DNA from: Planctomycetota bacterium
GTDB lineage: Bacteria; Planctomycetota; Planctomycetia; JALXBF01
Length of the DNA: 64,000 bases
Direction: 5' to 3'
Assembly: GCA_026991575.1 (NCBI GenBank)
Contig: JALXBF010000029.1
Span: 1-64,000 of the forward strand
Shown: positions 2,453 to 50,326 of the stretch, one piece after another
Numbering within the stretch: the first letter of the stretch is position 1
How the letters are laid out: each line of letters begins with the position of its first letter
Program-made: the position numbers and the translations under genes
Notes under the pieces: generated by a model
Told to the model about the DNA's origin: nothing
What the model saw: only the letters and a program-made list of their open reading frames with translations
Database searches by the model: none

Positions 2453-3361
2453 TCAGGAGCTGAGCTGGCGGCGGAACCGCTTCAGGAGCCAGAGCCGTTT
2501 GAGCCGCTGGACGGGGCCACGGTTTCCCCAGCGGAGCCGGCGGCGCACGTATCCGCCGGTCCATGGGTCGAACTGCTGATGCCACGGGGCCGGCCACAGT
2601 GGTCCCCGTCCCGTCAGGATCTTGACCGCCTCCACGGCGGCCACGCCGGCGCAGAGTTGGCAGGCCGCGGCGCAGCTTGGCGCGGTTCGAGCCTCCGGGT
2701 CAAGCCGCGTCAGGTCCATGTACTGGAGGTGAAACGGACGCGGCGCCAGCCCGACGCCGAAGGCAATCAGCTGCGTGAGCTCGTCCTGGTCATCGTTCAG
2801 GTCGAAGTACTCGTCAAAGCTCATGCCGCCGGGTGCAAAGACCAGCCACGCGACGCCAAAGCCGACGGGGCCGGCCGTAATCGCCCAGATGCCCTGGCGT
2901 CTTGCCTCCGCGAAGAGCAGCCGCCGTACGCGCACGGCATAGAAGTCGACACCGTCCACGAACAGGTCAGCCCCCCTGAGGAACGCCGCCGCATTGTGCT
3001 GATCGACGCTGCGGTCCCAGGTTACCACCTCCGCTTCCGGGTTGATCGACCGGACAACGTCCGCGATCACCTCAGCCTTGTTCTGGCCTATCGTCTCGAC
3101 CGTAGCGCCGTACTGGCGGTTGAAATTCGCCAGTTCGAACCGGTCCGGATCAGCGATGCGGAAGCGGCCGACGCCGAGGCGTGCCAGCGTGGCGGCGTGG
3201 ACGCCGCCAACTCCGCCGGCGCCGGCGATCGCCACGCACGCGTAGCGCAGGAGTTCTTGCGCATCGGGCGCGATCAGCCCAAGGTTGCGGCTGAATGCCT
3301 CGTGGTAGTCCCACGGCGCCCGTGCCGTGGCCAGCTGTGCTACCGCGAATCGGTCCGTCAT
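2453..3361 (-). CDS. ThiF/E1-like adenylyltransferase
   Basis: This 302-aa protein has the Rossmann nucleotide-binding motif GAGGVGG (about residue 47) followed by the IADPDRFELANFNRQ segment. That is the classical ThiF/MoeB/HesA/E1 ATP-binding core, in which a C-terminal carboxylate is adenylated. N-R-Q and the downstream K of GQNKAEV match the family ATP contacts. A Cys-rich stretch (SCAAACQLCAG) sits where zinc or catalytic Cys residues occur in relatives, but the usual paired CxxC zinc motifs are not complete. The start ATG at 3361 lies 5 nt after the stop of the membrane-fusion gene, so it is translationally linked to the exporter operon. No ThiS/MoaD-like carrier protein is adjacent. 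The substrate may be a small molecule or peptide; this is inference. Confidence 0.8.
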   Translation of the reverse strand: MTDRFAVAQLATARAPWDYHEAFSRNLGLIAPDAQELLRYACVAIAGAGGVGGVHAATLARLGVGRFRIADPDRFELANFNRQYGATVETIGQNKAEVIADVVRSINPEAEVVTWDRSVDQHNAAAFLRGADLFVDGVDFYAVRVRRLLFAEARRQGIWAITAGPVGFGVAWLVFAPGGMSFDEYFDLNDDQDELTQLIAFGVGLAPRPFHLQYMDLTRLDPEARTAPSCAAACQLCAGVAAVEAVKILTGRGPLWPAPWHQQFDPWTGGYVRRRLRWGNRGPVQRLKRLWLLKRFRRQLSS

Positions 3362-3366
3362 AGGCT

Positions 3367-4464
3367 TCAGTGAACGATGCGTTGCCCGAGCTGGGCTACG
3401 GATTTGGCATCCTGCTTGGGCTGCGCCACCTCGGGACGGTCGCGCAAGATCCGCACGTGGACGCGTAGGCCGATGGGCAGGTCCAGCTTCTGATCCAGTC
3501 TGATCCACACTTCGCGCACGCGCGAGTCGTACCGCTCGGTCGGCTCGAAGGTGAACAGCGTCTTGCGCTGCACGATCGGGCTGATGCGCGTCACCGTGCC
3601 CTTGAGCCGCTGGTCGGGCCGGCCATCGACGGTTACGATCGCTGCCATACCGGTATGAACGCGAGCAGCGTCGTATTCCTCCACAAAGGCCCGAACGTGC
3701 GAGCTGCTTCGGTCCACGATCACCACTGCCGGCTCAACCGACTGCGGCGACAGCAACTCGCCGACGCGGCAGTTGACCTGCAACACCTGGCCAGCAACAG
3801 GCGCATGCAGCGTGAGCTTTTCCAGCCGGTGCTTCAGCAGCCTGACGCGCGCCTGAGCGGCGGCAACCAGCGACTCAGCTACCTGCACATCCTCGGGCCT
3901 GGACCCTGCCTTCAGCAGCAGGTACTCCGCCTCGGCCGCCGCGGCGCGGGCCGCCGCCACCAGGTACGCATACTGCTCCTCTTCGACTTCGCGCGCATCG
4001 GCCCCGGCCCGTTCCCATAGAGCACGCTTCCGCTGCCAACGTTGATGAGCCTGCCGGGCTGCAGCAGCGGCTGCCTTATACCGCTCCAGCGCGGCCCGAA
4101 TCTCTTCGTCACGAGGACCGGCAACGACGCGAGCCAGGCGGGCAGTTGCCGCGGCCGCCTGGGCTTCTGCTTCCGCCAGCTCGGCAGCAATCAGCTCGCT
4201 GTCGAGCCGCACCAGAGGCTGGCCAGCCTCGACAAAGTCCCCCTCGCGCACCAGCACCTCCAGAACGCGGCCGGTCAGCTCAGGCCGAAGCCGGATCGGC
4301 TCATCAGCCCCTTCTAGTTGCCCTGGTGCATAGATGTCGAACTGAACCAACCGGTCACCGACCGGTTGGACCGATCGCGCCGCAGGCTTGCTGCGCTGGT
4401 CAACCACCCAGGCAAGCACGGCAACGATCGCGGTCGTGATGGCCAACAGGGCAAGCGGACGCAT
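3367..4464 (-). CDS. HlyD/DevB-like periplasmic adaptor of an ABC exporter
   Basis: This is a 365-aa membrane fusion protein. It has one N-terminal membrane anchor (about residues 4-20), then a lipoyl-like half motif (RLRPELTGRVLEVLVREGDFVEAGQPLVRL written in parts: PELTGRV, VREGDFVEAG). A long Ala/Glu/Arg-rich coiled-coil hairpin follows (about 90-215), then the second lipoyl half (LHAPVAGQVLQVN) and a beta-barrel region. This layout is that of HlyD, MacA and DevB adaptors, which bridge an inner-membrane ABC transporter to an outer channel. It lies 19 nt downstream of the ATPase gene and 5 nt upstream of the ThiF-like gene. No TolC-type outer-membrane gene is present nearby. Confidence 0.88.
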   Translation of the reverse strand: MRPLALLAITTAIVAVLAWVVDQRSKPAARSVQPVGDRLVQFDIYAPGQLEGADEPIRLRPELTGRVLEVLVREGDFVEAGQPLVRLDSELIAAELAEAEAQAAAATARLARVVAGPRDEEIRAALERYKAAAAAARQAHQRWQRKRALWERAGADAREVEEEQYAYLVAAARAAAAEAEYLLLKAGSRPEDVQVAESLVAAAQARVRLLKHRLEKLTLHAPVAGQVLQVNCRVGELLSPQSVEPAVVIVDRSSSHVRAFVEEYDAARVHTGMAAIVTVDGRPDQRLKGTVTRISPIVQRKTLFTFEPTERYDSRVREVWIRLDQKLDLPIGLRVHVRILRDRPEVAQPKQDAKSVAQLGQRIVH

Positions 4465-4483
4465 GCTAGGAGTGCCAGCAGGG

Positions 4484-5257
4484 CTAGCGCAGTCGGGCTA
4501 ACGTTCCATTTCTCAGTTCGTAAATCTCGTCGGCAAACTCAAGGATCCTCGCGTCGTGCGTGACCACCAGCACGGTTTTGCCGGTTTCGTGGGCCAGATC
4601 CCGCAGCAAAGCCATGATCTGCGGGCCAGACTCTGCGTCGAGCGATGCGGTCGGTTCGTCGGCCAGGATCAGCTCCGGGTCGTTTGCCAGAGCACGGGCA
4701 ATGGCAACCCGCTGGCACTGTCCGACACTCATCATCCGCGGATCATGGTTGCCGTAGTCCTTCAGCCCCACCAACTCCAGCAACTCCTCGGCCCGCCGGT
4801 GTGCAAGCCGCTCCGAAACCCCCAGCAACGTCATGGGCACGATGACGTTCTGAACGGCGTTCAGGCCGCGCAGCAGGTGGAACTTTTGGAAGATGAACCC
4901 GATGCGTGTCCGACGCAGCGCTGCCCGCTGCTCCTCAGCGAGCCTGGTCACGTCCTGGCCGAACAGCTCCACCGAGCCGCCGTCAGGGCGCAGAATGCAG
5001 CCGATGATGGACAGCAGCGTCGTCTTACCGCAGCCGGACGGCCCAAGCAGGTAGTAACAGGCCGCAGGCCGAAGCTGCAGATCCACACCGCGGAGTACCT
5101 CTTCCACGTGCGTGCCCCGTCGGTATGCCTTGCGGACCGCACGCAGGCGAACGACCGCGTCCTCGTACGCCGGGCCCGGTCGTTGAGCCGGGCTGGTGGT
5201 GGGCTTGCTGGCTTGTTGGTGTTGTACTCGGGACGTCACCGACGTTCCTTTGCCCAA
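4484..5257 (-). CDS. ABC transporter ATP-binding protein (MacB/LolD/DevA type)
   Basis: This 257-aa ATPase has Walker A GPSGCGKTT, a Q-loop (FIFQKFHLL), a Walker B LILADEP, a D-loop (SLDAES) and an H-loop (VVTHD). The ABC signature reads MSVGQCQRVAIARAL, so the canonical LSGGQ is replaced by SVGQC, an unusual form. Its sequence groups with the ATPases of mechanotransmission exporters that work with FtsX-like permeases and a HlyD adaptor. About 35 N-terminal residues before the ABC domain (QHQQASKPTTSPAQ and so on) look like a disordered tail, so the true start could lie further in. The gap to the permease stop is 99 nt, the largest in this cluster. Confidence 0.9.
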   Translation of the reverse strand: MGKGTSVTSRVQHQQASKPTTSPAQRPGPAYEDAVVRLRAVRKAYRRGTHVEEVLRGVDLQLRPAACYYLLGPSGCGKTTLLSIIGCILRPDGGSVELFGQDVTRLAEEQRAALRRTRIGFIFQKFHLLRGLNAVQNVIVPMTLLGVSERLAHRRAEELLELVGLKDYGNHDPRMMSVGQCQRVAIARALANDPELILADEPTASLDAESGPQIMALLRDLAHETGKTVLVVTHDARILEFADEIYELRNGTLARLR

Positions 5258-5356
5258 GGGTCAGGCCATGCGCTACCGGGTTCCTGCACACCCCCTTACG
5301 GGGGCCCCCTCGCATCCAACCGGCACGTGTGCGCGTACGGTAGTCTTGCCCACCGA

Positions 5357-6478
5357 TCAGGTCAATGCCGCCATCGGGTCGGCGCGGCGCAACCGGCTGT
5401 AGGGCAGGGATGCCGAAGCGATCGCGATCAGCAGGGCGAAGAGGCAACTACCAGCCGACAACCACCATGGGATCCAGATCGGGGCACGGGGTGTGGAGTA
5501 GAACCACTGGATGGCCGCCACCAGGCTAATGCCCACCACACACGCCAGCGACGCAAGAAAACACGCCTGGCAGAGAAGGATGAGCCAGAGGTGCCTGCCG
5601 GTTGCGCCCATGGCCTTCAGCGCGGCGTACTCGGGCATCCGGTCCAGCACGGCCGCGTACATCGTCTGGGCGACGATCACCAGTCCAACGAGCATGCCCA
5701 GCAGCGTCGCCGCTCCAAAGCTGATGCCTAGGCCCGTGCGGCGCATCCAGAAATCGACCGACAGTCGGCTGTAGTCATCGCGCACGTAGACGTCAGCCTC
5801 CGGGATCCGCTGTCGGATCCGCGCGGCCAGGGCGTCCAGATCCGTGCCCGGCGTGGCACGCACCAGCAGGTATGAGCACATAGCCGGGTCCTTGTTGCAG
5901 TAGGCGGCCGCTCGGTCGAGGGTGGTAAAAACGTAGGGCGCAACAAGAAAGCCCATCACGCCCCGACTGAAGGCCACCACGCGGGCACGCCGGCCGCCGA
6001 TCTCGCGCACCTCGCCCAGCTCGGGCCACTGCAACTTCGGACGCTCGAGCACATCGACGATGATGCCGTCTGGCTGGAGAATGTCCGCCGCCTCCCCGTG
6101 CGCCAGCTTCCAGGCATTGCCCAGCAGGGTAGGGGGCTCGGTGCCGACGACCACAACCGCTTCCCGTGACCCGTCCGGCAAGGTCATGCTGGACCAGCCG
6201 ATCAGGTAAGGGACGGCTGCCTGCACGCCCGGCAGGCCGCGAATCCGATGCACCCACGCTCTAGGAATGTCCTCAGCGAAGTCCACGTTGTGCATGCCGC
6301 GATGGCCGACCCAGATATCTGCATCGCCGTAGTCGACCATAAGGCTGACCTTGCGGATCAGCCCAATGAATAGCCCCCCCTGGACGTTGACCAGCACGAG
6401 GGTGAAGATCAAGCCAAGCAGGGCAGTCCCCAGCTTGCCACGATCGGCCAGCAGCGTTCGAATCGCTAGGTTCCACAT
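5357..6478 (-). CDS. FtsX-family ABC permease, DevC-like
   Basis: This 373-aa protein has one TM helix near the N-terminus (about 17-37), a large periplasmic domain (about 50-250) and three C-terminal TM helices. That is the topology of MacB, DevC and LolC/E permeases. The opening MWNLAIRTLLADRGKLGTAL resembles DevC proteins, and DevBCA is known to export heterocyst glycolipids. The FtsX-type motif near the end (PEYAALKAMGATGRHLW) is clear. The ATG at 6478 was chosen over the longer frame because it gives a normal DevC-length N-terminus and lies 16 nt after the FeeM-like stop. An upstream ATG at 6520 would overlap that gene. Confidence 0.87.
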   Translation of the reverse strand: MWNLAIRTLLADRGKLGTALLGLIFTLVLVNVQGGLFIGLIRKVSLMVDYGDADIWVGHRGMHNVDFAEDIPRAWVHRIRGLPGVQAAVPYLIGWSSMTLPDGSREAVVVVGTEPPTLLGNAWKLAHGEAADILQPDGIIVDVLERPKLQWPELGEVREIGGRRARVVAFSRGVMGFLVAPYVFTTLDRAAAYCNKDPAMCSYLLVRATPGTDLDALAARIRQRIPEADVYVRDDYSRLSVDFWMRRTGLGISFGAATLLGMLVGLVIVAQTMYAAVLDRMPEYAALKAMGATGRHLWLILLCQACFLASLACVVGISLVAAIQWFYSTPRAPIWIPWWLSAGSCLFALLIAIASASLPYSRLRRADPMAALT

Positions 6479-6494
6479 GGCGACGTCCCGCTGG

Positions 6495-7283
6495 TCAGGC
6501 GGCGCGCTGGGGCGGCTCATACACGGCCGCCGTCGGCTGATCCACCGATCCGTAGTACAGCGCCGTGAAGAACCGACGGTCCGCTTCGGACATCGGCGGC
6601 ACAAGGAAGTTGCGTGGACAGATGCGTGGATACAGGTAGCGACGGCTCAGGTAGCGGCCCACGCGCCAGTGCGCGGTGCGCAGATCGAGCCGCAGCGCAA
6701 CGCCGGGTGCCCCCTGAACCATCGGGTGCGGCCGGCACCCGGCAAGCACCTCGAAGCCAAGCACCTGCTCGTAGAAAGGCACCTGCAACGGATGCACAGT
6801 GATGAGCAGATCGTCGTACCGACACCAGTAGCAGTACTGCACGAGAAAGCGGGTCAACGCGAAGAAAGCCGTCGCACTGCGGTGCTGCCCGGGCAGTCGG
6901 ATCGCAAATCCGGTGGCCTCGGCCAGACGACGCCGAAGAGACCTCAACGCAGCCACCTCACGTCCGTACACCAGTTCCATGGGCAGCCCGCGGTGGCTAT
7001 CACCGACAACACTCAACGTGCCTACAACGTTGCCCGCTCGCGTCTCGACAACCAGCGTCCTGGTGCTGTTGTACGCATAGTGAGGTCCGAAGCGAATGCG
7101 TGCAGGGTGCGGGGCGATGTAGCCTCGCGTCAGATAGGCATCGTAAAGCAGACGAAACGCCTGTAGGAAGTCGTTTCGTCGCTGGGCAATGCGTACCCGC
7201 ATGTGCACGTCCTTCGGTTGAACTTGCCGAGGCTCTGCCCCCATGGCGCCGGCGGTCGCGGCGGAGTATGGCGCTTTGGCCAT
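6495..7283 (-). CDS. FeeM-like N-acyl amino acid synthase (GNAT/LuxI-like fold)
   Basis: This 262-aa protein matches the FeeM / PEP-CTERM-associated acyltransferase family. The core runs FRLLYDAYLTRGYI, LVVETRAGNVVGTLSVVGD, GLPMELVY, RRLAEATGFAIR, a segment with LTRFLVQYCYW, and VHPLQVPFYEQVLGFE. Characterised FeeM transfers a fatty acyl chain from acyl carrier protein to an amino acid amine (N-acyl tyrosine). Here it heads an operon with an exporter and an adenylyltransferase, suggesting that its product is modified and exported. The start is uncertain: ATG at 7283, 7244 or 7202 all fit, and the conserved domain begins just after 7202. A paralogue lies at 9624-10376. Confidence 0.75.
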   Translation of the reverse strand: MAKAPYSAATAGAMGAEPRQVQPKDVHMRVRIAQRRNDFLQAFRLLYDAYLTRGYIAPHPARIRFGPHYAYNSTRTLVVETRAGNVVGTLSVVGDSHRGLPMELVYGREVAALRSLRRRLAEATGFAIRLPGQHRSATAFFALTRFLVQYCYWCRYDDLLITVHPLQVPFYEQVLGFEVLAGCRPHPMVQGAPGVALRLDLRTAHWRVGRYLSRRYLYPRICPRNFLVPPMSEADRRFFTALYYGSVDQPTAAVYEPPQRAA

Positions 7284-7835: not shown

Positions 7836-8486
7836 ATGGTTTTCAAGTGGCAGCATCCCGCAGAATCCAGAGGTGCAGCCATGCCCGTGGCGCTTGTCGT
7901 CGTGAAGGGCCGCTCCGAGGGGACGAAGATTCCCGTTGCGACCTCCCCGTTTCTCATCGGTCGAGACCCACGCTGCCATCTGCGACCACGTAGCAGCCTC
8001 GTCAGCAAGTGGCACTGTGTGCTATCGCTCAAGGAAGACGGTGTCTACTTGCGCGATCTGAATAGTCTCAACGGCACCTTCGTGAATAACCGCCGCATTC
8101 GCCGTGAGATCAAACTTCGCAACGGTGATCTCATCGCCATTGGACCATTGGTATTCGCCGTTGCCATCGAGGAACCAGTGAGCGCACCGGCGCAAGAGCC
8201 TCAGACGGCCGATTTGGAGCAGGCCGTTGCGCAGTGGATCGGCGCCGGAGACGGCGTTGGGCCGGAAAACGAGGAGGCACTGGCTGAGTCGACAACGATC
8301 ATGCCTTCTCCTGTCGCAGAGCAGCCCCCCTCAGAACCAATCCACCACCAAGACCCGGCCGGCGCGCCATCGTCGGCCGAGGCGTCGGCCAGCCAGGAGC
8401 GAAAGTCGTCACCTAAGACGGGCAGCACAGCCGAGGTGGCTGATAAACTGCTGGAGCTGTTGTTCGAGCCGAGGCGGCGGTCGTGA
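7836..8486 (+). CDS. FHA-domain protein
   Basis: This is a 216-aa cytoplasmic protein. The FHA domain spans about residues 17-112, with the phosphothreonine-binding core IGRDPRCHL, SLVSKWHC and RDLNSLNGTFVN (Arg43, Ser/His and Asn positions conserved). The remaining half is acidic, Pro/Ser-rich and probably disordered, ending in a short helix (EVADKLLELLFEPRRR). FHA domains bind pThr targets of Hanks kinases, and two such kinases are in this window. The start is supported by GGAGGG 8 nt upstream. The stop overlaps the mutY GTG by four bases, so the two are co-translated, although a functional link between FHA and MutY is not established. Confidence 0.88.
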   Translation: MVFKWQHPAESRGAAMPVALVVVKGRSEGTKIPVATSPFLIGRDPRCHLRPRSSLVSKWHCVLSLKEDGVYLRDLNSLNGTFVNNRRIRREIKLRNGDLIAIGPLVFAVAIEEPVSAPAQEPQTADLEQAVAQWIGAGDGVGPENEEALAESTTIMPSPVAEQPPSEPIHHQDPAGAPSSAEASASQERKSSPKTGSTAEVADKLLELLFEPRRRS

Positions 8487-9655
8487 CCAGCAGGCAGAGC
8501 AGGGGGGGCCGGGAAAACGTATCGCCTGTCCGTGTCAGCGGTGCCGGGCCGGATATTCAGCGGCTGGCGCGCGCGCTCATGGCCTGGTACGCCGACCACC
8601 GCCGGGACCTGCCATGGCGACGGCCAGGTGTCACGCCGTATGAAGTCCTCGTCGCCGAGGTGATGCTCCAGCAGACTCAGGTCACCACGGTGCTGCGGTA
8701 CTACGACCGCTTCCTGGCCACCTTCCCAGACCTGTCGTCGTTGGCACGCGCTTCCGAAGCCGATGTGCTGCGGCTGTGGCAGGGCCTGGGCTACTACCGA
8801 CGGGCGCGGAACCTGCAGCGGACGGCGCGCGAACTGTGCAAGCGCTTCGGCGGGCAGGTACCCTCGGAGCTTACCGTCCTTCGCAAGCTGCCCGGGGTGG
8901 GCGAGTACACGGCACGGGCAATCCTGGCGTTTGCGTTCAACCGGCCGGTGGTCCCGGTGGACGCGAACGTGGCGCGGGTTCTGGCCCGGCTGTGGGCGGT
9001 GCCGGATCCGATCGAGCGGACCGCAACGCGACGGAGGCTGTCGTTGGCAGGCGACCTGCTGGCGGCTGCCGCCGGTAACGGCCAAGTCGGTCAGGCGCTC
9101 ATGGACCTGGGAGCGACGATCTGCACGCCGCGGTACCCGCAGTGTGCCATGTGCCCGCTCGCCGACAACTGCGTGGCCGCCCGTAACGGTGCTCAGGACC
9201 GCTTACCGGTAACCGGCGAACGTGCCCCGGTGGAGCGACTCCTGGAGTGGGGAGCCATCGTGTTCGACGACAGTGGTAGGGTCTTGCTGCTGCGGCGCAA
9301 GCGTCCGCTACGGTGGGGCGGTCTGTGGGAGTTTCCCCGATTTCCACGGCGGGATGGCGAAGACCCCCAGCGGCTCTGCGCCCGACTGGACCGCTGGGGG
9401 CTTCGGGTGCACTTCTGGCAGGTTGGGGCCTCCTTCACGTACCAGGTCACACGCTTTCGTGTGAGCCTTCGTCCGTGGGGGGGATGCTGCGGCGGTGGCC
9501 GAGTCACCGGATCCGACGAACACGATCAAGCCCGATGGGTACGGCCCGAGCGACTGGGCAACTATGCATTGCCCAGCCCGCAGCGCCGCCTGGCGCGGCT
9601 GGCTAAGCGATGGGCTCGGGAGCTTACGCAAGTTGCCACCGCTCGGCGTCACTGA
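8483..9655 (+). CDS. mutY: A/G-specific adenine glycosylase
   Basis: MutY (390 aa) removes adenine mispaired with 8-oxoguanine in base-excision repair. The sequence shows the catalytic Glu in AEVMLQQTQV (E59), the helix-hairpin-helix LPGVGEYTA, the catalytic Asp in PVDANV (D160) and the [4Fe-4S] pattern C-x6-C-x2-C-x5-C (CTPRYPQCAMCPLADNC). A C-terminal NUDIX-like domain (about 245-375), which recognises 8-oxoG, follows, including LLLRRKRPLRWGGLWEFP. Length is normal for the family. The GTG start overlaps the FHA stop. The 3' end overlaps the convergent FeeM-like gene by 32 bases, which is tight but does not disturb either domain. Confidence 0.95.
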   Translation: MTSRQSRGGRENVSPVRVSGAGPDIQRLARALMAWYADHRRDLPWRRPGVTPYEVLVAEVMLQQTQVTTVLRYYDRFLATFPDLSSLARASEADVLRLWQGLGYYRRARNLQRTARELCKRFGGQVPSELTVLRKLPGVGEYTARAILAFAFNRPVVPVDANVARVLARLWAVPDPIERTATRRRLSLAGDLLAAAAGNGQVGQALMDLGATICTPRYPQCAMCPLADNCVAARNGAQDRLPVTGERAPVERLLEWGAIVFDDSGRVLLLRRKRPLRWGGLWEFPRFPRRDGEDPQRLCARLDRWGLRVHFWQVGASFTYQVTRFRVSLRPWGGCCGGGRVTGSDEHDQARWVRPERLGNYALPSPQRRLARLAKRWARELTQVATARRH

Positions 9656-10376
9656 ACGGAGACAGCTGCGAGGTGGTCTTCAGCGATTCCAGGTCCACGT
9701 CGCCCAAGAACTTGCTGTATGCAATCCGACGCTGGCTTTTCTCGCGGCTCAACTCGGTCAGGTCCAGCAGCAGCGGCACCGCCGGAGCGTTCTGCACGGC
9801 GTCGTACGTCTTGACCGGTCCGAATTGCCTGAAGGGCAGGAAGTTGGCATAGAAGCGCACGTGGCGTGGGTTGATCACCACCAGCAGATCCGTGACGCGC
9901 TGCCTGAGTGCGAACCAGACAATGCTCCGCGTCAGCGACACCACGAGATTAACGGTGGCCGACCGCTCACGCACCCGGGACGCAAAGCCGATGACCTCCG
10001 CCAGCCGTCGCCCTTGCTCGCGCAGTCTGCGCAGCTCCTCGTGGTACAGCTTCTCCATGGGCAGTCCCCAGGGGCCGTCAGGCACGTACGTGGCCGTGGC
10101 CAACACGACGCGGTCGCGTGCGCAGGCAACGAAGACCTCTGCCCCTGGTACGCAACAGTACCGGTGCACATGGGTCTGGATCGCGTCCTGGGGTACGTAC
10201 CCCAACCGCTTGTACTGCTCCAGGACAAGGTCCAACGCGGCATGGCGAAGTGCGATCGTATCGGCCAGGCGGCAACGATACGGGACCCTGCTGATCCAGC
10301 GGCGTGCGGAATCGAGCGGCGTCTGGTCGGCACCTCGCGAGGATTCCGATCCCGTGACCTGCCCGGTCTGAACCAT
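9624..10376 (-). CDS. Second FeeM-like N-acyl amino acid synthase
   Basis: This 250-aa paralogue of the gene at 6495-7283 shares, in the same order, GLPMEKLYHEEL, RRLAEVIGFASR, a short region ending RSIVWFALR, and INPRHVRFYANFLPFRQFG. The ATG at 10376 is preferred because GGGGGAGC lies 4 nt upstream; a GTG at 10460 is possible but has no Shine-Dalgarno sequence. It stands alone here, between gltB upstream (same strand, 272-nt gap) and mutY downstream (convergent, overlapping 32 nt). By family it would acylate an amino acid amine from acyl-ACP; substrate and product are unknown. Having two copies within 4 kb suggests duplication within this locus. Confidence 0.72.
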   Translation of the reverse strand: MVQTGQVTGSESSRGADQTPLDSARRWISRVPYRCRLADTIALRHAALDLVLEQYKRLGYVPQDAIQTHVHRYCCVPGAEVFVACARDRVVLATATYVPDGPWGLPMEKLYHEELRRLREQGRRLAEVIGFASRVRERSATVNLVVSLTRSIVWFALRQRVTDLLVVINPRHVRFYANFLPFRQFGPVKTYDAVQNAPAVPLLLDLTELSREKSQRRIAYSKFLGDVDLESLKTTSQLSPFSDAERWQLA

Positions 10377-10648
10377 GATGCTCCCCCTTCGCGACGATGT
10401 GTCTGTGGCTTTCCCGTCCAACGTGCTGTCCGGTTGAACAGATGTGTCGTTTTCGGACACTCAAGCGTAGGTCACAGGCTGCGCTCGTCAACTGAATGCA
10501 ACAGCCCTTTCTGGCGGCCGGAAGTGACGTCGATCCTCGCACGCCGACCGCGCGAGCTCAGCCGCGCGCAATCAGCACCGGCAGCCAGCGGCGGGTGTTG
10601 GCAGGGGGCGTTCGCACCGGCGCGAGGCGGGCACTCCTTGTTGCCAGG

Positions 10649-22104: not shown

Positions 22105-25100
22105 TTAGCGTGCGTTCAGACCGAGCTCGACCAGCAGATCGATGACGGTAGCCGGGCCGCCATCGTCCTGAAGCTCGCCCTGGCCACCGAAGTCGACGTC
22201 CCACACGCCGGTGCTAGTGACGTACGCATACCGCACGAGCAGGCCGCGATCGTCCAGAGCCAGCAACACGCGCCCGGCGCCGTCGCGGCCCGGCAGAACA
22301 TCGACAATCTGGGCGATGCTGTTGCCGGTGGGATGACCCGGGAGCGTGTCCTCTCGCCAGACGAGCCCATCGTCGCTGCGGAACTCGATCAGCTGACCTC
22401 CGTACGTCTTCGCGTACACGTAGATGCTGCCGTTGAGCTGGCCGGCTGCAAGACCGGCCTCAAGCACCAGCGGCGCATCGGTAGCCGGGTCATGCAGGAC
22501 GTTCCGTTTCCAGTCGCCTCCTTGCCGCTTCAAATGGACCAGCGCCCCGTCGGCCTGGACCGCAATCACATTTCGGCCCACGCCGCCGCCGGTGACCACG
22601 TCGACAAGCGGCTGGTAGGCGCCGGGATCCAAGGGCCGCACCCGCACGCGGTTGCCGACCAGCCGGACCTCGGTCAGTTGTCCGCCCGGGGTTACGCCGT
22701 AAGCAAACACCCACGGCTTCGCGGACGCCGGTCGGGCGACGTACAGGCCGGGTAGGCCGCTGAACCGCGGCGCCGCCGGGCCACGGGCTCCGTTGAGCAC
22801 CTGGGCCGACCAGCCCTCTGCTCGTTGGAATCGGAACACAGTCAGCGCACCACCCCGTGAGCGGGCCACGACGAGGAAGCCACCTCGAATCCGCGCGGCC
22901 TCTACCCCTTCGGCCAAAGCAGGAACGCGTACCTGTGCGCTGACGTTGCTAACCACCCACCGCTTGCCGGCTCGACGGTACCAGGCGAGGTCTCCAGCTG
23001 GGGTGACGCCGAAGACATAGCGGATGCGTCCGGCACGATCGGTAATCACGGCACTAGTGCCGCCAATCAGCGGCCCGGACACCTGCGCGGTTACGTCCGT
23101 GACGACCAGCTTCGCGCCCCGGCGCTCCAGGATGTTCACATGGCCGGCACGGTCGACGATCGCCGAGGGCTTGTCTGGATAGTAGAGCGCCCCCCCGAGG
23201 GCGTACGGGGCGGAGAACGGGCCGACGAGGCCATAGTTCAGCGGAAACTGCGTGATCGTTCCGGCCGGTGGCAGGTCCGGACCACCGGTCCAGTAGCCGC
23301 CCACGATAATCTGCGGACCGAACGGTCCCGGATTCGGATGTCCGGCCGGCACGTTCGCACTCAGCACGCCGCCCAGCGTCGGGCTCCCGAAGAGCAGTTC
23401 GACTTCGCCGGCATCCTCCACGGTACTCTGCAGCCGCAGCGTGTCGGCTCCTGGCGAACCGACCACAAGATCCCATCCTTCGCCAACACTTGGCGAATCA
23501 TGTACCTGACCGACACCGGCGACGGCCGTGCCCATGAACTGCCGCTCCATGCGGCCCTCGAAAATGACGCCTACGTTCTTCAGTGGTGAGTTGATCAGCG
23601 TCACCAGTGGCAGAACGGTGCCGGAGGCGATCTGGTACGCGTCCGTTCCAAGAAGGAGGTAGACACGTCCGGCATCGGGCAGCACCGGACCAAATTCCGG
23701 CTTGACGTCGGCCAGCGGTGCGCCGATGACCAGGTCGTCCACTTCGTCCAGCGCGCCCTGCGGGTCCCGGATGTTACCGGTCGGGGCCAGCGCGACGCCG
23801 GTGCGGTCCCCGCGCGCGGCGCCCTGGATCGTTACGCCGATCGGCTGGCTACTGGCCACGAAGCTGGTCACCAGGATCGGCGTCACGGCGCCCGAGCCGT
23901 CTGTCCGCTGGGCGAAGTTGCCGCCCACTTCGCGGCCAAAGACGATGTACACCTCTCCAGCATTGGGCAGGGTCCTCTCGCCGCGTGGCGTGGAAACGGT
24001 TACGTCGCGGTTGGGCGCCGCGAACATGAAGTCGCTGATGCCATCGTTGTCGAAGTCCCCGGCTGCGGCGACCGTCATGCCAAGCCGGTCACCGTGTTGG
24101 GCGCCCTGCACGGGGATGGCACCCAGCGCCAGGAGATCATCGTTGTTATCCAGTTCGTACACGCCACGGGTGTCCGGTGTAGCCAGCAGGGTGCCGGGGA
24201 AGAAGTAGACCCGTCCCGGCCGGTCCGGCGTGATTCCCGGACAGGCGTTGTCGGAACAGGCATCCGGTGCGCCGGCCAGAAAGTCCGGCTCAGGAGAAGC
24301 ATCCACCGAGAACGGATCGGGACGATTGGTCCGCAAGCCCGGGTCGTGCACGCCCGAAACACTCCAACCGAGGTGAGCGTCACGCGAGGGGCCGTAGACG
24401 ATGCTGCCGCGATTTGTCACGACCAAGTCGTCGACGTTGAGCACGCCCGGCGATCGCTCGACGCCACCGTCCATGCGCTCATTGCCGCCGATGACGTAAA
24501 TGGCCCCGCGGTTGAAGTCGGCCGGATCAGCCGGCGATTCAGCCCGCGGCGCACCGAGCACGATGAACGGCTCTGCCCCGGGTACCCTTGCGGCACCGAT
24601 GCCCGCCACCGAGTAGCCCAGTTGATCGCCGGGGCGGGCCCCCTGGTAGATCTGCCACGATCCTGGCTGCGTTGTGGCCAGGGGATCAAGGTCCCGTAGG
24701 TCGATGGTGACGTCCGCAAGCGTCAAGGTCTGGCCGGCGTCAAGCTTTGCACGCGCTTGCAGCCAGACGTTGACAAGAAAATCACCACCGATCAGATACA
24801 CGCGTCCTCGATCGGTGTTGATGTCCTCCAACGTGCCTTCGATCTGCTCAGCGCGGGGGGCTCCGATGAGCAGATCAGGCTTGCCGTCGCCGATGATGTT
24901 ACCGGCTGCGGCGACGCTGAAGCCGGCCCGGTCACCTGCACGCGCACCGATAATTCGAATCGCCTGTGCATTGGCGAGCAACCGTTCAAGCGGGCGGCAA
25001 CGTTGGGTAGTGGTGGGGCTGACGCAGCCTTCGAGGGTCGCAGCTTCAAGATGCTCGCCACCGAAGACAACGTACACTGCCCCCGCATCCTGACGGCCCT

Positions 25101-25311
25101 CTGGGTCGGCCAGCGGCTCGGCGATCACGAAATCGTCGCCGACCATCTTCAGCGGCGCGCTGTCCAGCAGGTTGCCCAGCGGCTTCACCTGCGCACCGAG
25201 CGCAGCTTCCGGATCGTTGCCCGTGATGAGTGTCGAGAGCAGTTCGCGTTCTTCCAGGCGTTCCAGCGAAAGCCGGCGCGCGCTGCGCTTGGTTCGACTC
25301 TTAGCCGCCAC
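22105..25311 (-). CDS. Giant surface protein with FG-GAP (integrin-like) propeller repeats
   Basis: This is a 1068-aa exported protein. It starts at GTG 25311, because GGAGG lies 8 nt upstream; the open frame continues further upstream without support. Residues about 10-24 carry the planctomycete extracellular motif (SARRLSLERLEERELLS). At least six FG-GAP blades follow (about 60-640), with D-x-D-G-type calcium loops such as GARAGDRAGFSVAAAGN, GAPRAE and AAGDFDNDGISDFMFAAP. The last about 350 residues are a second propeller-like repeat (G.L..Y....W.V pattern) also found at the C-terminus of the neighbouring subtilisin-like protein. Probable roles are adhesion or matrix binding; this is inferred. 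Confidence 0.85.
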   Translation of the reverse strand: MAAKSRTKRSARRLSLERLEERELLSTLITGNDPEAALGAQVKPLGNLLDSAPLKMVGDDFVIAEPLADPEGRQDAGAVYVVFGGEHLEAATLEGCVSPTTTQRCRPLERLLANAQAIRIIGARAGDRAGFSVAAAGNIIGDGKPDLLIGAPRAEQIEGTLEDINTDRGRVYLIGGDFLVNVWLQARAKLDAGQTLTLADVTIDLRDLDPLATTQPGSWQIYQGARPGDQLGYSVAGIGAARVPGAEPFIVLGAPRAESPADPADFNRGAIYVIGGNERMDGGVERSPGVLNVDDLVVTNRGSIVYGPSRDAHLGWSVSGVHDPGLRTNRPDPFSVDASPEPDFLAGAPDACSDNACPGITPDRPGRVYFFPGTLLATPDTRGVYELDNNDDLLALGAIPVQGAQHGDRLGMTVAAAGDFDNDGISDFMFAAPNRDVTVSTPRGERTLPNAGEVYIVFGREVGGNFAQRTDGSGAVTPILVTSFVASSQPIGVTIQGAARGDRTGVALAPTGNIRDPQGALDEVDDLVIGAPLADVKPEFGPVLPDAGRVYLLLGTDAYQIASGTVLPLVTLINSPLKNVGVIFEGRMERQFMGTAVAGVGQVHDSPSVGEGWDLVVGSPGADTLRLQSTVEDAGEVELLFGSPTLGGVLSANVPAGHPNPGPFGPQIIVGGYWTGGPDLPPAGTITQFPLNYGLVGPFSAPYALGGALYYPDKPSAIVDRAGHVNILERRGAKLVVTDVTAQVSGPLIGGTSAVITDRAGRIRYVFGVTPAGDLAWYRRAGKRWVVSNVSAQVRVPALAEGVEAARIRGGFLVVARSRGGALTVFRFQRAEGWSAQVLNGARGPAAPRFSGLPGLYVARPASAKPWVFAYGVTPGGQLTEVRLVGNRVRVRPLDPGAYQPLVDVVTGGGVGRNVIAVQADGALVHLKRQGGDWKRNVLHDPATDAPLVLEAGLAAGQLNGSIYVYAKTYGGQLIEFRSDDGLVWREDTLPGHPTGNSIAQIVDVLPGRDGAGRVLLALDDRGLLVRYAYVTSTGVWDVDFGGQGELQDDGGPATVIDLLVELGLNAR

Positions 25312-25397
25312 GTTCGTCCTCCACTCATCTCGGTGACGTCGCCCTCCGGCCCCAAGGGCTCTGCGCCCGTTCTCTCTGTCTGCCCCCCTCATGTCGC

Positions 25398-28300
25398 TTA
25401 GACCCCGCCGCCATCCAGGCCGGAATCGTCGGAGCTATCGTCCTGATCGCCGGAACTAACGTAGCTCAGTGCCCAGTCGCTCAATGGGTCCGGCCCGCCA
25501 AACAGCAGTTCCGCGATGGCACCATCGATCGACTCCACGAGCACGTCCCCCGTGTTCGTAGCGGCGACGTCGCCGGTCAGGGGTACGTCGTTGCGGACGC
25601 TCCAGTCCCAGCCGCTTGCGCCAAGCTCATAGACCACCAGCTGACCGTCCTTGGTCCGACCGATGACATATGTCCGCTGGGCTGTCTCGTCGTAGTACAG
25701 CTCCAGTTCACCCTGGAGCCGAGGCCCATGCAGCGGCATGCTCACGGGCTGCCCCGACCAGCGCCGGCCGCGCTTTTCGTACATGACCAGGTTGCCGGCA
25801 CGGTCAATGCCGAGGACGCGACGTACGATTCGACCGTTCTCGCTGATCTCGCGGGCAGCCAATCCGGCTACGATTCGCGGGACTCGGTCACGCACTTCGA
25901 CCGGGCGGGAAATCCAGCGGCCATCGCCCGTACGAACGATTTCGACCAGTTGACCGTCGCGTCGGACCGCATACAGCAGCGCGCCGCGAATCGCCTCGGC
26001 ATCGTCGGCACGGTGGGTCACTGCCAGCGTGCGGTCCGACAGCCGCTCCAGATTTGCGAGCTGGGTGACGTTCCGAACCGTCCAGACACCGCCGATCAGC
26101 TCATACGCGATCAGCCGGCCGTTACGATCCACGCCGGCCACGATCACCTGTTCGGCGCCCGTCTGCGGATCGTGCAGCCTGATCGCACGCAGCGCACCGC
26201 TCAGTGCGGGGCCGCCGGTGGTTGCTGTCACGTCTTCGATGGTCCAGCCCGTCGGCGATGCTGCGTAGCGGATCAGGTGGCCGTTGATCGCCAGACCATA
26301 GACGTCGTAGTACCCCTCGCCGTCGCGGTCAACGGTGGCCATGTAGGAGACGGCACCGAGTTGACCGTCGGTCGGCATCACCGGTTCGGACGGCTGCCAG
26401 CCGGTCTGCGTGCGCAGGAATGGTCGCAGCTGACCACCGGGGCCGAAGGTGAAGGTCATCTGGAGGCCGTCGGCGTTGAGCCCGGCCAGATTATCGATCC
26501 CGGGCTGAACGAACTGCTGATCGGTGCCCTCCGGCGCCATCGGCTGCCCAGGAGTCACGGGCTGATAGCTGCGAGCGTTCCCACTGCTGCTGCCGCCACC
26601 TCGTTGCGCCTGGCTGTCAGTAACCGGCAGCAACATCAACGGGCTACGGCCACGTGCCCCGGAACTGAACGCGCGCGGGCTCTTGTTAGCGAATTCCGGC
26701 GGCAGCTTGGTCCAGAGCATATGCTCGCGCGACAGGTAGATCAGGTCGCGGTAATTGCGCATCGCCTGGGAATCGAGCGCGTAGCCCTTGCGCGCTGCCT
26801 TCCAGCGGTTCTGGATTGGGAAGCTGTTCGGTCCGGGCAACAACCGTCGGATCAGCCGGTTGAGCTGACGCACGCCGATGTAGTTGTCGGGTCGCTCATC
26901 AGCGACGAGGTCGAGGAACCGGAGGCGGTTGATCCGAGCGAGTCGATCGCCGCCGCCCAACAGTCTGGCCATCGCACGCGCGGTCGGATCGATCGCCGGG
27001 TTGGCGACGAAGCGATCGATATCCTGGACAGTGATGATGCCGGGCGTTCCAGCGGCGCGGGCCAGAGCACGCCAGTACTGCGGGTTCAGACGGAAGTAAC
27101 GCAGGGCTATCGAACCTTCGACGGCTGCCACGAAGTTGGCGATGTTGATGTGCGAGTAGGTTCGGTATCGGTCGCTAAAGAGCAGCCGTTCTTGCTTGAC
27201 GTCGTCATCGGTACCGGTAGGGAAGTCGTACGTCTCACCGATGTTGACATCTTCTCGGGGCACCGCCGTCCATTGGAAAATCGAGTTCACGCCGTCCGGA
27301 TTGAGATAGGCACCAAAGTTCGGGATCGCCGAACGCGGAATACGCAGCACCATGTTTGGTGAAGGAACGCCCGACAGATCGCGAACCAGGTACTGATGCA
27401 GTTTCTTCAGCGCCGGATCATTCGGTCGGATCCTTCCCCCCTTCCGCCGAACCTTGTACCAGAGGTCCAGGACGTCGTAACCCAGCACGAAGGAGCCGGC
27501 GGTCACTGGGGCCGCGGCGGAGGTCCCGTTAAAATCGGGTAGAATCGGTGCCATCGAGTTCGTGTCGACCACGTCGGGCCCTTCTAAACCAAGCGAGCTG
27601 AGCCCGAACGTGCTGACGCATGTTCCGGGAGCTGCGTAGTCACTTACGACGTTCCGGCTGGAAAATGCGGTGATCTTGCCAGGGAAGGCAATGTTGTCAC
27701 CGGGTTCTAGTTGACACCGCAGGGTGAGGTCACTGGTAATCGGCGGTGCCTCTCCCGGCGGAACAGGCCCGTACGGATATGCGGCTATCACCTCGACAAC
27801 CTCGTTGAGAACGGCAGGAATGATACTCCCGTCCATGCCATTGAAAAACTGACCCTCATTGCCCGCCGCGCCAACGGGCACAATGCCGTACCGCGAGGCT
27901 TTGTAGAACCGCCGGAACTCGAACTTGAGCGGGATAGCTTCGGACTTGTTCACCTGCACAGCGTGGCGATCGCTGTCGACGTTGTTGTCGGGATCGTCAG
28001 GAAACCTGATTCCCAGGGACATGTTGGCGGCCACAATGGGATACCGCTCCCGCTTCGGTGTTCGCGGGTCATCAGCAAACGGGTTCTGGCGGACCCACTT
28101 GACCGCGGTATATAGGTCCTGGGCAGTGAAGCCAAAGCCCAGGACATTCACTGGCACAATAACCGCCTCGGGAGCGATTTGGTGGATGATGCCCGCTACG
28201 GCAGTTCCGTGGCCATCGGGATCCACGTTACCTGGGCCGGTGAAAGCCGTGTTGAACCCCGGCGCAACCGTTCCCTGGAAGCCCAAGTGGTCGCCGTCAA

Positions 28301-29957
28301 CCCCGGTGTCGATAACCGCTGCGGCAAAGCCACTGCCGTCGTACGGGGCCCGCAGTTCCTTCAAGTCCGTCAATCCAATGTAGCTGCCGCCGGGAGTGTG
28401 CGGCAGCGTGTTTGCGTAGAAGGCCCACACGCCGTCAGCATCCGATACGAACAGGATCTGTCCATCGGCTGAGAAGCTAATGGAGAAGGGCACTCGCAAT
28501 GCCGCGGCCGCGCCGAACAGATCATCGTTCGGATCGGGAAAGCCCGGATCCGTGTCGGCCGGGTCGGGTGGGAAGGCATCCGGATCCGGCACGTTGAAGC
28601 CGGTAGCAAACACCTCTTCGTTCCAAGAGTCGGTGGCCGGATCGTACCACAGTCGCCGAACCGACTTGGACTGGTAGTCCGTGAAGAACAGGCCTCCACC
28701 AAAGAATCCCACCGGGTCAATTGTCATGTCGCCGATCAACATCGGTGGCGCGTTGATGCCCGTAACGTTCGGGTTATCCAATATCGTGCGTGGTCCGATG
28801 AGGTCGACCGGGGGAGAAGTTATGCTGGGGAAATGCACGATACGCGTTACGCCGTCGACCTCCCCGAAGCGCACATCGCTAATCGCCATGAACAGCCCGC
28901 CATAGACCTGCTGAGCAGGCGTCCCATAGAAGCCCCCGGAGATGACGCCGCCACCGGGGTGAAAGACCATAGCCCGTACGTCCATGTCTACCGGGCTAAC
29001 GTACGGCGCTAAATCGGGATCATTCGGGGTAGGCATCAGCACGCGTGGCAGGATCTCCTCGACCTGGGGATGGAGTACTGCAGTGGCATCAAGGTCGATT
29101 GGGGCAGGAATGCCAGGCGAAACGCGCCAGAGCACGTTGCCATCGCGGTCTGGCGGCGCGTCGAAGAAGTCGTCGTCAACGCCGTCCATAACGTACAGGT
29201 CCGTTCCAAACGAGCCGCCTGGGCCAAGCGCCAGCGCGACCGGGGAGTTATCCAGGCGGTCGAGCTGTGGAGCAAGATCCGTGGGGGCAACATTGCGGCG
29301 GGAGAAGGCCCACAGGTTCGTGTTGAATGGGGGAGTTGGGTTGGCGACCAGCGAGCCGTCGGGCAGGAACGCGTAAATCCCGTTAAGCGGGTTCACCCCC
29401 GGGCCCGGGTCGTCCTGGTCGGCCACGCTAATAAACATCGTTGGACCGCCATTGACTCGACTAAACACCCCCTTGTAGTCGAAGGCGATATCAAACCACG
29501 CTGTATACGCGTCGATGTCCACATCGGCGCCCGCACCACCCGGGATGTAGCCGAAGACTTTCTTGTTCTGCGCGGGGTCAGTGATCCCGAAGCCTGAACC
29601 AAGCGTTGCGTACGGATCCACCCGGTAGATCGTGCCGATCGCATCGGGCGGTGCAGGGGGAATAATGCCGCCACCGGCCTGCGGAATGCCTCGCGATACG
29701 ACGTACACATCGCCCCCAAACAAACCGGTCGGATCCGCCTCGATCCTCCCGGTCACGGTGCTCAGCAGGCGAACGCTGACGAAGCCATCCGTCGTAGCAC
29801 CGACCGTGCCGAAAGGCTGCCATGCCGTGCCGCTGACCACCGTGGGCGCCAGCAAGCAACGCTCTTCCAACGTCTCGAAGTCGCGCAGCCGCGGGCGGGT
29901 GCGGTCTGTTTGGCGCGTATCTTGTCCACGTTGCGTTCGTCGCCTGGATATGAGCAT
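25398..29957 (-). CDS. Giant subtilisin-like (S8) exported protein
   Basis: This 1519-aa protein carries the planctomycete N-terminal motif (RDFETLEERCLLA, about 26-38). The N-terminal half (about 45-520) looks like a beta-propeller with repeated calcium-style D/G/N loops (GPGGSFGTDLYVMDGVDDD). The S8 protease domain has the full triad: Asp550 (AAVIDTGVD), His583 (DGHGTAVAGI) and Ser813 (FNGTSAAAPV), with the oxyanion Asn at about 700 (GAAGN). After a linker rich in Gln, Ser and Gly (about 1110-1160) come repeated propeller blades (G.LI.YEL...W.V) shared with the gene downstream. The start ATG 29957 has AAGGAG upstream. It is predicted to be a surface protease; whether it is active or processes neighbours is unknown. 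Confidence 0.88.
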   Translation of the reverse strand: MLISRRRTQRGQDTRQTDRTRPRLRDFETLEERCLLAPTVVSGTAWQPFGTVGATTDGFVSVRLLSTVTGRIEADPTGLFGGDVYVVSRGIPQAGGGIIPPAPPDAIGTIYRVDPYATLGSGFGITDPAQNKKVFGYIPGGAGADVDIDAYTAWFDIAFDYKGVFSRVNGGPTMFISVADQDDPGPGVNPLNGIYAFLPDGSLVANPTPPFNTNLWAFSRRNVAPTDLAPQLDRLDNSPVALALGPGGSFGTDLYVMDGVDDDFFDAPPDRDGNVLWRVSPGIPAPIDLDATAVLHPQVEEILPRVLMPTPNDPDLAPYVSPVDMDVRAMVFHPGGGVISGGFYGTPAQQVYGGLFMAISDVRFGEVDGVTRIVHFPSITSPPVDLIGPRTILDNPNVTGINAPPMLIGDMTIDPVGFFGGGLFFTDYQSKSVRRLWYDPATDSWNEEVFATGFNVPDPDAFPPDPADTDPGFPDPNDDLFGAAAALRVPFSISFSADGQILFVSDADGVWAFYANTLPHTPGGSYIGLTDLKELRAPYDGSGFAAAVIDTGVDGDHLGFQGTVAPGFNTAFTGPGNVDPDGHGTAVAGIIHQIAPEAVIVPVNVLGFGFTAQDLYTAVKWVRQNPFADDPRTPKRERYPIVAANMSLGIRFPDDPDNNVDSDRHAVQVNKSEAIPLKFEFRRFYKASRYGIVPVGAAGNEGQFFNGMDGSIIPAVLNEVVEVIAAYPYGPVPPGEAPPITSDLTLRCQLEPGDNIAFPGKITAFSSRNVVSDYAAPGTCVSTFGLSSLGLEGPDVVDTNSMAPILPDFNGTSAAAPVTAGSFVLGYDVLDLWYKVRRKGGRIRPNDPALKKLHQYLVRDLSGVPSPNMVLRIPRSAIPNFGAYLNPDGVNSIFQWTAVPREDVNIGETYDFPTGTDDDVKQERLLFSDRYRTYSHINIANFVAAVEGSIALRYFRLNPQYWRALARAAGTPGIITVQDIDRFVANPAIDPTARAMARLLGGGDRLARINRLRFLDLVADERPDNYIGVRQLNRLIRRLLPGPNSFPIQNRWKAARKGYALDSQAMRNYRDLIYLSREHMLWTKLPPEFANKSPRAFSSGARGRSPLMLLPVTDSQAQRGGGSSSGNARSYQPVTPGQPMAPEGTDQQFVQPGIDNLAGLNADGLQMTFTFGPGGQLRPFLRTQTGWQPSEPVMPTDGQLGAVSYMATVDRDGEGYYDVYGLAINGHLIRYAASPTGWTIEDVTATTGGPALSGALRAIRLHDPQTGAEQVIVAGVDRNGRLIAYELIGGVWTVRNVTQLANLERLSDRTLAVTHRADDAEAIRGALLYAVRRDGQLVEIVRTGDGRWISRPVEVRDRVPRIVAGLAAREISENGRIVRRVLGIDRAGNLVMYEKRGRRWSGQPVSMPLHGPRLQGELELYYDETAQRTYVIGRTKDGQLVVYELGASGWDWSVRNDVPLTGDVAATNTGDVLVESIDGAIAELLFGGPDPLSDWALSYVSSGDQDDSSDDSGLDGGGV

Positions 29958-50263: not shown

Positions 50264-50326
50264 CGATCCGCGGCGCGCGGCGTGAGCCGGCCCGAGGAAG
50301 TTAGCCCGAGGAACTGTACCGTGGCG

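Follow-up and report, generated by a model that had tools for sequence, protein, structure and literature searches.

The window analysed here is a stretch of 64,000 nucleotides of a planctomycete genome (G000:C29:1-64000, contig JALXBF010000029.1), and since its left edge is the end of the contig, nothing upstream of base 1 can be read. At 7283-2453, on the minus strand, it carries a run of five genes combining an acyltransferase, an exporter and a ThiF-like enzyme. All five open reading frames (ORFs) were confirmed at the coordinates given by an earlier, sequence-only reading, which had described them as co-directional, tightly spaced and suggestive of one pathway. In order of transcription they encode a FeeM-type N-acyl amino acid synthase (NAS; 6495-7283; PF21926 FeeM, 1.8e-39), a DevC/MacB-like ATP-binding cassette (ABC) permease (5357-6520; MacB_PCD, 6.6e-9, and FtsX, 5.2e-16), a DevA-like ABC ATPase of 257 residues with a TTG start as listed (4484-5257; PF00005, 9.5e-32), a HlyD/DevB-like periplasmic adaptor of 365 residues (3367-4464; HlyD_3, 5.7e-18, and HlyD_D23, 1.2e-17) and a ThiF/E1-like enzyme of 302 residues, a predicted ATP-dependent N-acyl amino acid cyclase (2453-3361; PF00899, 6.5e-43). 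The first 26 bp of the permease gene, counted from its ATG at 6520, are also the last 26 bp of the NAS gene (an alternative ATG lies at 6478), and the gaps that follow, from permease to ATPase, ATPase to adaptor and adaptor to ThiF, are 99, 19 and 5 bp; because of this spacing the five genes are likely to form one operon. A scan for promoters and terminators gave no signals above chance level.

The only PDB sequence match of the window NAS was FeeM (2G0B, 1.2e-9). Likewise, its AlphaFold model, with a predicted local distance difference test (pLDDT) score of 84, gave FeeM 2G0B as the top fold match (8.7e-15), followed by acyl-homoserine lactone synthases. Together with the PF21926 match, this identifies the protein as an amino-acid N-acyltransferase with the FeeM/acyl-homoserine lactone synthase fold, as expected for an acyl-oxazolone pathway, and supports the N-acylation step that had been proposed from the sequence. 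Two other planctomycete genomes, G076 and G017, gave 23 and 34 matches to FeeM-type synthases, several of them in open frames of more than 700 residues that may represent fusions.

The ThiF-like protein scored 390 bits against PRK08223, above the cut-off of 266, and 317 bits against PRK14851. PRK08223 was also matched by the ThiF proteins of stieleriacine-type clusters (L059, L056) and of a kyonggic-acid-type cluster from Massilia (L104). The NCBIfam model PRK14852 describes a single protein with an NAS-like as well as a ThiF-like region, and each window protein matches its own part, the NAS the N-terminal part and the ThiF-like protein the ThiF part, as it also does in PRK14851. Moreover, a ThiF fused to a flavin-dependent oxidase (FDO) in genome G185 matches PRK14851 over nearly its full length; an NAS-like region can thus share a protein with a ThiF-like one, and ThiF can share one with an FDO. 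In an alignment of 19 planctomycete ThiF sequences the motif GxGGVGG at 47-53 (glycine loop G47-G52), R82, K95 and D136 are invariant. D136 aligns with the catalytic aspartate of TcdA and, through this alignment, is presumably the counterpart of D217 of TrzS, which itself lies outside the alignment; the adenylation residues of an acyl-oxazolone cyclase thus appear intact, including this aspartate. No cysteine is invariant among the 19 sequences, which argues against an E1-type thioester mechanism. The protein also falls far below the equivalog cut-offs for ThiF, MoeB and UbaA and, with no conserved catalytic cysteine, does not qualify as an E1 enzyme of sulfur transfer or ubiquitin-like conjugation. 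The closest PDB sequences are TcdA enzymes (2.5e-17), and the fold that the ThiF model matches best is AclA of Tenacibaculum discolor (9egb), with MccB and PaaA also among the matches. Adenylation of a carboxylate by this protein, raised as a possibility in the sequence-only reading, is therefore supported by the conserved residues and the PRK08223 score as a predicted activity. Its nearest relatives are planctomycete copies with 57-60% identity that lie in ThiF/oxidase clusters, and in the ThiF tree most of them (L055, L058, L067, L057) have an FDO gene alongside.

The sequence-only reading knew no name for the combination; the enzyme pair is, however, central to the biosynthesis of oxazolones (oxzAB, tyzACB, trzAS) and of stieleriacines (PMC10404671, PMC12856293, PMC12479983). 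In these pathways an N-acyl amino acid is activated by the ThiF protein as its adenylate, and intramolecular cyclisation yields a 5-oxazolone (PMC10404671, PMC12856293, PMC12479983). The C12-tyrazolone of M. tuberculosis is made by the acyltransferase TyzA, the ThiF-like cyclase TyzB and the flavin-dependent oxidase TyzC, while TrzA and TrzS make tryptazolones; the D217A substitution in the ThiF part of TrzS abolishes cyclisation, which comes first, and when desaturation is blocked the saturated cyclised compound accumulates (PMC10404671, PMC12856293). The window operon shares with OxzAB (Pseudoalteromonas rubra), TyzACB and TrzAS the joint encoding of an NAS and a ThiF-like protein, the adenylation residues including the catalytic aspartate, and the matches to PRK14851 and PRK14852. 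It differs from them in lacking an FDO and in carrying an ABC exporter within the run; for tyz, no transporter other than the neighbouring mmpL9 is discussed. The stieleriacine clusters of Stieleria contain NAS, ThiF, nitroreductase and methyltransferase genes with a PEP-CTERM gene nearby, and no transporters beyond putative, unspecified ones are mentioned for them (BGC0002080; PMC7293339, PMC12479983). The window shares with them the planctomycete NAS and ThiF and the nearby PEP-CTERM gene, and its ThiF is 50-53% identical to those of the stieleriacine-type loci of Rhodopirellula sp. JC639 (L059; the strain is named Stieleria mannarensis in PMC12254169) and Roseiconus (L056). However, both the nitroreductase-family oxidase (FDO) and the methyltransferase are absent from the window cluster, and no DevC gene lies within 9 kb in L056 or L059. 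TcdA, the tRNA threonylcarbamoyladenosine (t6A) dehydratase, is likewise comparable in that it uses ATP to form an adenylate through which an N-acylated amino acid is closed into a ring, but its substrate is tRNA-bound t6A, and the window protein reaches only 73 bits against a TcdA model cut-off of 304.

The exporter has the parts of a MacB-type system, namely a permease with a MacB periplasmic core and FtsX domain, an ABC ATPase and a HlyD-type adaptor, encoded by separate genes as in the DevBCA heterocyst glycolipid exporter and MacAB-TolC. The PDB matches of the adaptor are EmrA and MacA, and DevA TIGR02982 is the best NCBIfam match of the ATPase. All three proteins score below the NCBIfam cut-offs (DevB TIGR02971, 104.7 against 129 bits; DevA TIGR02982, 217.6 against 295.8; DevC TIGR01185, 89 against 290), so that the label "DevBCA-like", already used in the sequence-only reading, is correct and "DevBCA" is not. 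In further contrast to the known exporters, the run holds no TolC gene, TolC-like genes being found elsewhere in the genome, and it is linked to NAS and ThiF. The permease is the sole DevC-like gene detected in the source genome.

Linkage between exporter and cyclase was counted in seven planctomycete genomes selected for ThiF and not for exporters. Of the 24 DevC homologues in these genomes, ten are found no more than 8 kb from a ThiF gene, where 0.17 would be expected (P=3e-16 under random placement, with some of the contigs being short). Four more ThiF-bearing genomes contained no DevC homologue. In the DevC tree the window protein falls in a clade with 100/99 support together with cluster-borne DevC proteins of L067, which has an FDO, and of the planctomycete genome G087, which has none, and the proteobacterial DevC-like genes form a separate group. 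The idea that all linked DevC proteins are one dedicated subfamily was rejected, as the label needs seven changes, five of them forced by supported branches. A role of the pump in export, as the sequence-only reading had it, is thus supported by a linkage far above chance, and it is on this linkage that the product export step, which we consider likely, rests; the cargo may be the oxazolone or an open-chain acid, between which the sequence does not distinguish. A second, separate exporter-type association occurs in Betaproteobacteria, where a tandem pair of MacB-like permease genes lies on the opposite strand near ThiF (L107, L111, L114, L098, L083, L086, L100, L073), in most cases with an FDO. 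Furthermore, L102 has a 634-residue ORF (L102:4526) that matches the HlyD-type adaptor as well as the ABC ATPase and may be a fused exporter.

GTDB genomes were scanned with the ThiF alignment (A2), which gave 80 named loci, and 20 planctomycete neighbourhoods were taken from whole genomes. FeeM and FDO genes recur near the ThiF genes of these loci. The exporter recurs on the same strand in L034/L071, L035/L088, L036, L039, L044, L067 and L102, in loci with and without an FDO, and the order in L034/L071, FeeM-DevC-DevA-HlyD-methyltransferase-ThiF, is that of the window with a methyltransferase added. The exporter set DevA/DevC/HlyD also adjoins FeeM and ThiF genes in a Thiodiazotropha genome (L097) and in an unclassified bacterium (L113). 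Conservation of the neighbourhood among planctomycetes had been suggested as a check on the sequence-only reading, and the gene set does recur; the clustering is not due to chance, and the recurrent linkage of NAS, exporter and ThiF supports the view that the five genes serve one pathway. In one of these loci (L035:8797-10936, the same as L088) two tandem ThiF-type genes are flanked by a FeeM gene and a DevC/DevA/HlyD exporter. A 508-residue conserved neighbour in L035 and other loci was considered as the missing oxidase and rejected, being an extracytoplasmic function (ECF)-type sigma factor.

Homology to characterised enzymes and the conserved residues make N-acylation followed by adenylation and ring closure, taken jointly, quite probable. 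The FeeM-type synthase would acylate the amino group of a probably aromatic amino acid with a fatty acyl group taken from acyl-acyl carrier protein or acyl-CoA. With ATP-Mg, the ThiF-like enzyme would adenylate the free carboxylate, and attack of the amide oxygen on the adenylate would give a 2-alkyl-5(4H)-oxazolone, involving neither a cysteine thioester nor a carrier protein. The DevC/A/B-like pump, with a TolC-type channel encoded elsewhere, would then move the lipid product out. The sequence itself shows the gene set with its protein families, the conserved adenylation residues and the recurrent linkage, and from these we infer the substrate, the ring closure in this organism, and the cargo and direction of the exporter. 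In relatives the FDO would desaturate the ring, and hydrolysis would give N-acyl dehydroamino acids of the stieleriacine type. In the window organism desaturation would either be absent, leaving a saturated, reactive oxazolone or its hydrolysis product, or be carried out by an unlinked, divergent FDO. It is fairly likely that the operon represents an exporter-coupled variant of the N-acyl amino acid/oxazolone pathway without a clustered oxidase. A search of the literature for DevBCA with N-acyl compounds returned just a review of efflux systems, and oxazolone-biosynthesis papers within the search, which did not extend to subscription papers, made no mention of an ABC transporter. Neither a built-in exporter nor a cluster without the usual oxidase is described in the papers found, and the novelty of the exporter link is provisional.

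The PEP-CTERM gene reported just downstream (1380-2243, its start placed from a signal-like N-terminus) was confirmed on the same strand, 209 bp past the ThiF stop; it scores 18.3 bits against TIGR02595 (cut-off 16), and the genome holds one exosortase (G000:C181, 5.4e-68). The neighbourhoods contain 57 PEP-CTERM-like ORFs, of which 40 are found no more than 3 kb from ThiF, in a zone accounting for 37.6% of the sequence (P=6e-7, with loci that are not entirely independent). Moreover, their density is about ten times higher within 1 kb of the cyclase gene than at 7-9 kb (L033-L052 and L055-L134, covering Proteobacteria and Planctomycetota). The window protein itself was rejected as a conserved partner, since no homologue was found in the other loci and only the sorting signal recurs; since the proteins are mostly non-homologous, it is the sorting system that the association concerns. 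NAS genes were linked to PEP-CTERM and exosortase by Craig et al. 2011, as cited in PMC4897644, PMC11072679 and PMC7293339. The window agrees with this link as cited, having a PEP-CTERM gene by the operon and an exosortase in the genome, but here the association was measured around the ThiF gene and the PEP-CTERM proteins are mostly unrelated.

A second FeeM-type NAS of 278 residues (9624-10460, minus strand; PF21926, 2e-32) lies outside the five-gene run, beyond FHA and mutY genes. It is 32.5% identical to the first, and the genome has only these two. The sequence-only reading had overlooked this gene, as it had the recurrence of the PEP-CTERM association and the absence from the cluster of the FDO normal for the pathway. 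The FHA-domain gene overlaps mutY by 4 bp (7836-9655, plus strand), the pair lying between both NAS genes and being transcribed away from the NAS operon. Elsewhere in the window, 50282-51388 (plus strand) is an arginine-kinase (McsB)-like gene, here in a planctomycete, whose product has the catalytic domain of ATP:guanido phosphotransferases (PF00217, 4.9e-68), and 22105-29957 (minus strand) holds two very large neighbouring ORFs, for a subtilase of 1519 residues and an FG-GAP repeat protein of 1095 residues, separated by 5 bp.

Several findings weigh against the exporter-coupled reading. Every characterised oxazolone pathway is completed by an FDO, which would be expected to be linked or fused to ThiF in a pathway of the Oxz/Tyz/Trz kind, and no FDO gene or domain was found in the window cluster. 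The absence of PF00881 matches from the genome suggested that it lacks a nitroreductase altogether, which was rejected as a false negative: PF00881 matches cluster-type FDOs weakly or not at all, and a profile built from cluster FDOs (A3) detects one relative (G000:C39:41000-42064). This sole relative is divergent and unlinked and scores 151 bits, where the best FDO in each of the eight other genomes searched reaches 244-469 bits. The cluster-type methyltransferase was found neither in the cluster nor in the genome. The window NAS is only about 24-31% identical to cluster NAS proteins and deviates at two mostly conserved positions (R117, Q167). Furthermore, stieleriacine producers have yielded no oxazolone, and the cluster of S. 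neptunia does not hold the main NAS gene of that species. In mycobacterial and rhodococcal work acyl-oxazolones remained mostly inside the cells, so that the cargo of the exporter might instead be the N-acyl amino acid. The product of the window organism is also a prediction from its genes.

One alternative is a dispersed pathway of the stieleriacine type, in which the product would be an ordinary N-acyl dehydroamino acid, with desaturation by the unlinked FDO relative encoded on C39 and secretion by the exporter. An FDO relative does exist in the genome, stieleriacines are found in culture medium, planctomycete pathway genes are often scattered, and the closest ThiF and DevC relatives (L055, L058, L067) are accompanied by an FDO. 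The FDO on C39 is, however, divergent: it is of the Acg/TyzC type (L137:6923-8134, minus strand), has leucine in place of the invariant arginine of the QR motif of cluster FDOs and lacks their RSxR end. Its gene is flanked by one for a Glu/Gln-tRNA synthetase and one for another FtsX permease. Moreover, G087, which is 99% complete and belongs to the class to which the source genome is assigned, has the window operon order plus a methyltransferase and no FDO detectable with the A3 profile, so the synthase-exporter-cyclase set can occur without the oxidase; G056 (94% complete), the other relative that shares the gene set, gave just a weak match of 26 residues at 6e-4. We regard the dispersed pathway as unlikely. 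The notion that operons without an FDO form a single lineage was also rejected, since presence or absence of an FDO would have to change 26 times across the ThiF tree, although contig ends blur this label.

Alternatively, the ThiF-like enzyme might not cyclise the N-acyl amino acid but activate it so that it can be passed on to an external nucleophile, such as an amine lipid, polyamine, sugar or protein, and the conjugate would be exported. E1-like enzymes catalyse couplings too, as the fold matches to MccB and PaaA recall, a saturated oxazolone, with FDO absent, would serve well as an acyl donor, and a PEP-CTERM gene follows the operon. This is distinctly improbable for an enzyme in which neither a peptide-recognition domain nor an invariant cysteine was found, whose nearest solved sequences belong to the cyclising TcdA, and whose nearest relatives sit in oxidase-containing, oxazolone-type clusters. 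That the pump is a co-transcribed resistance or lipid-homeostasis exporter with cargo unrelated to the NAS/ThiF product is barely probable: the DevC-ThiF linkage is far above chance, arose in several DevC lineages and is seen with differing gene orders, and the genome has no other DevC-like gene. About half of the DevC homologues of the seven genomes lie away from NAS and ThiF genes, so such pumps have further uses, and the sequence does not reveal the cargo. Within the exporter-coupled reading, a branch free of FDO is conceivable, if very improbable, in which a saturated electrophilic oxazolone would be pumped out and act as an acyl donor beyond the inner membrane, attaching the N-acyl amino acid lipid to surface molecules. 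The targets would possibly be exopolysaccharide or PEP-CTERM proteins, the latter because their genes recur beside the cyclase gene.

Oxazolone lipids came to notice only recently, and both what they do in physiology and what becomes of them are described as unresolved (PMC10404671, PMC12856293). A pump whose genes repeatedly accompany that of the cyclase offers a concrete candidate for the exit route of these lipids or their precursors, and the operons without an oxidase permit a direct test of whether the cyclase product is useful without desaturation. Moreover, the finding that PEP-CTERM genes are concentrated close to the cyclase gene adds to an old and unexplained link between N-acyl amino acids and the sorting of surface proteins.

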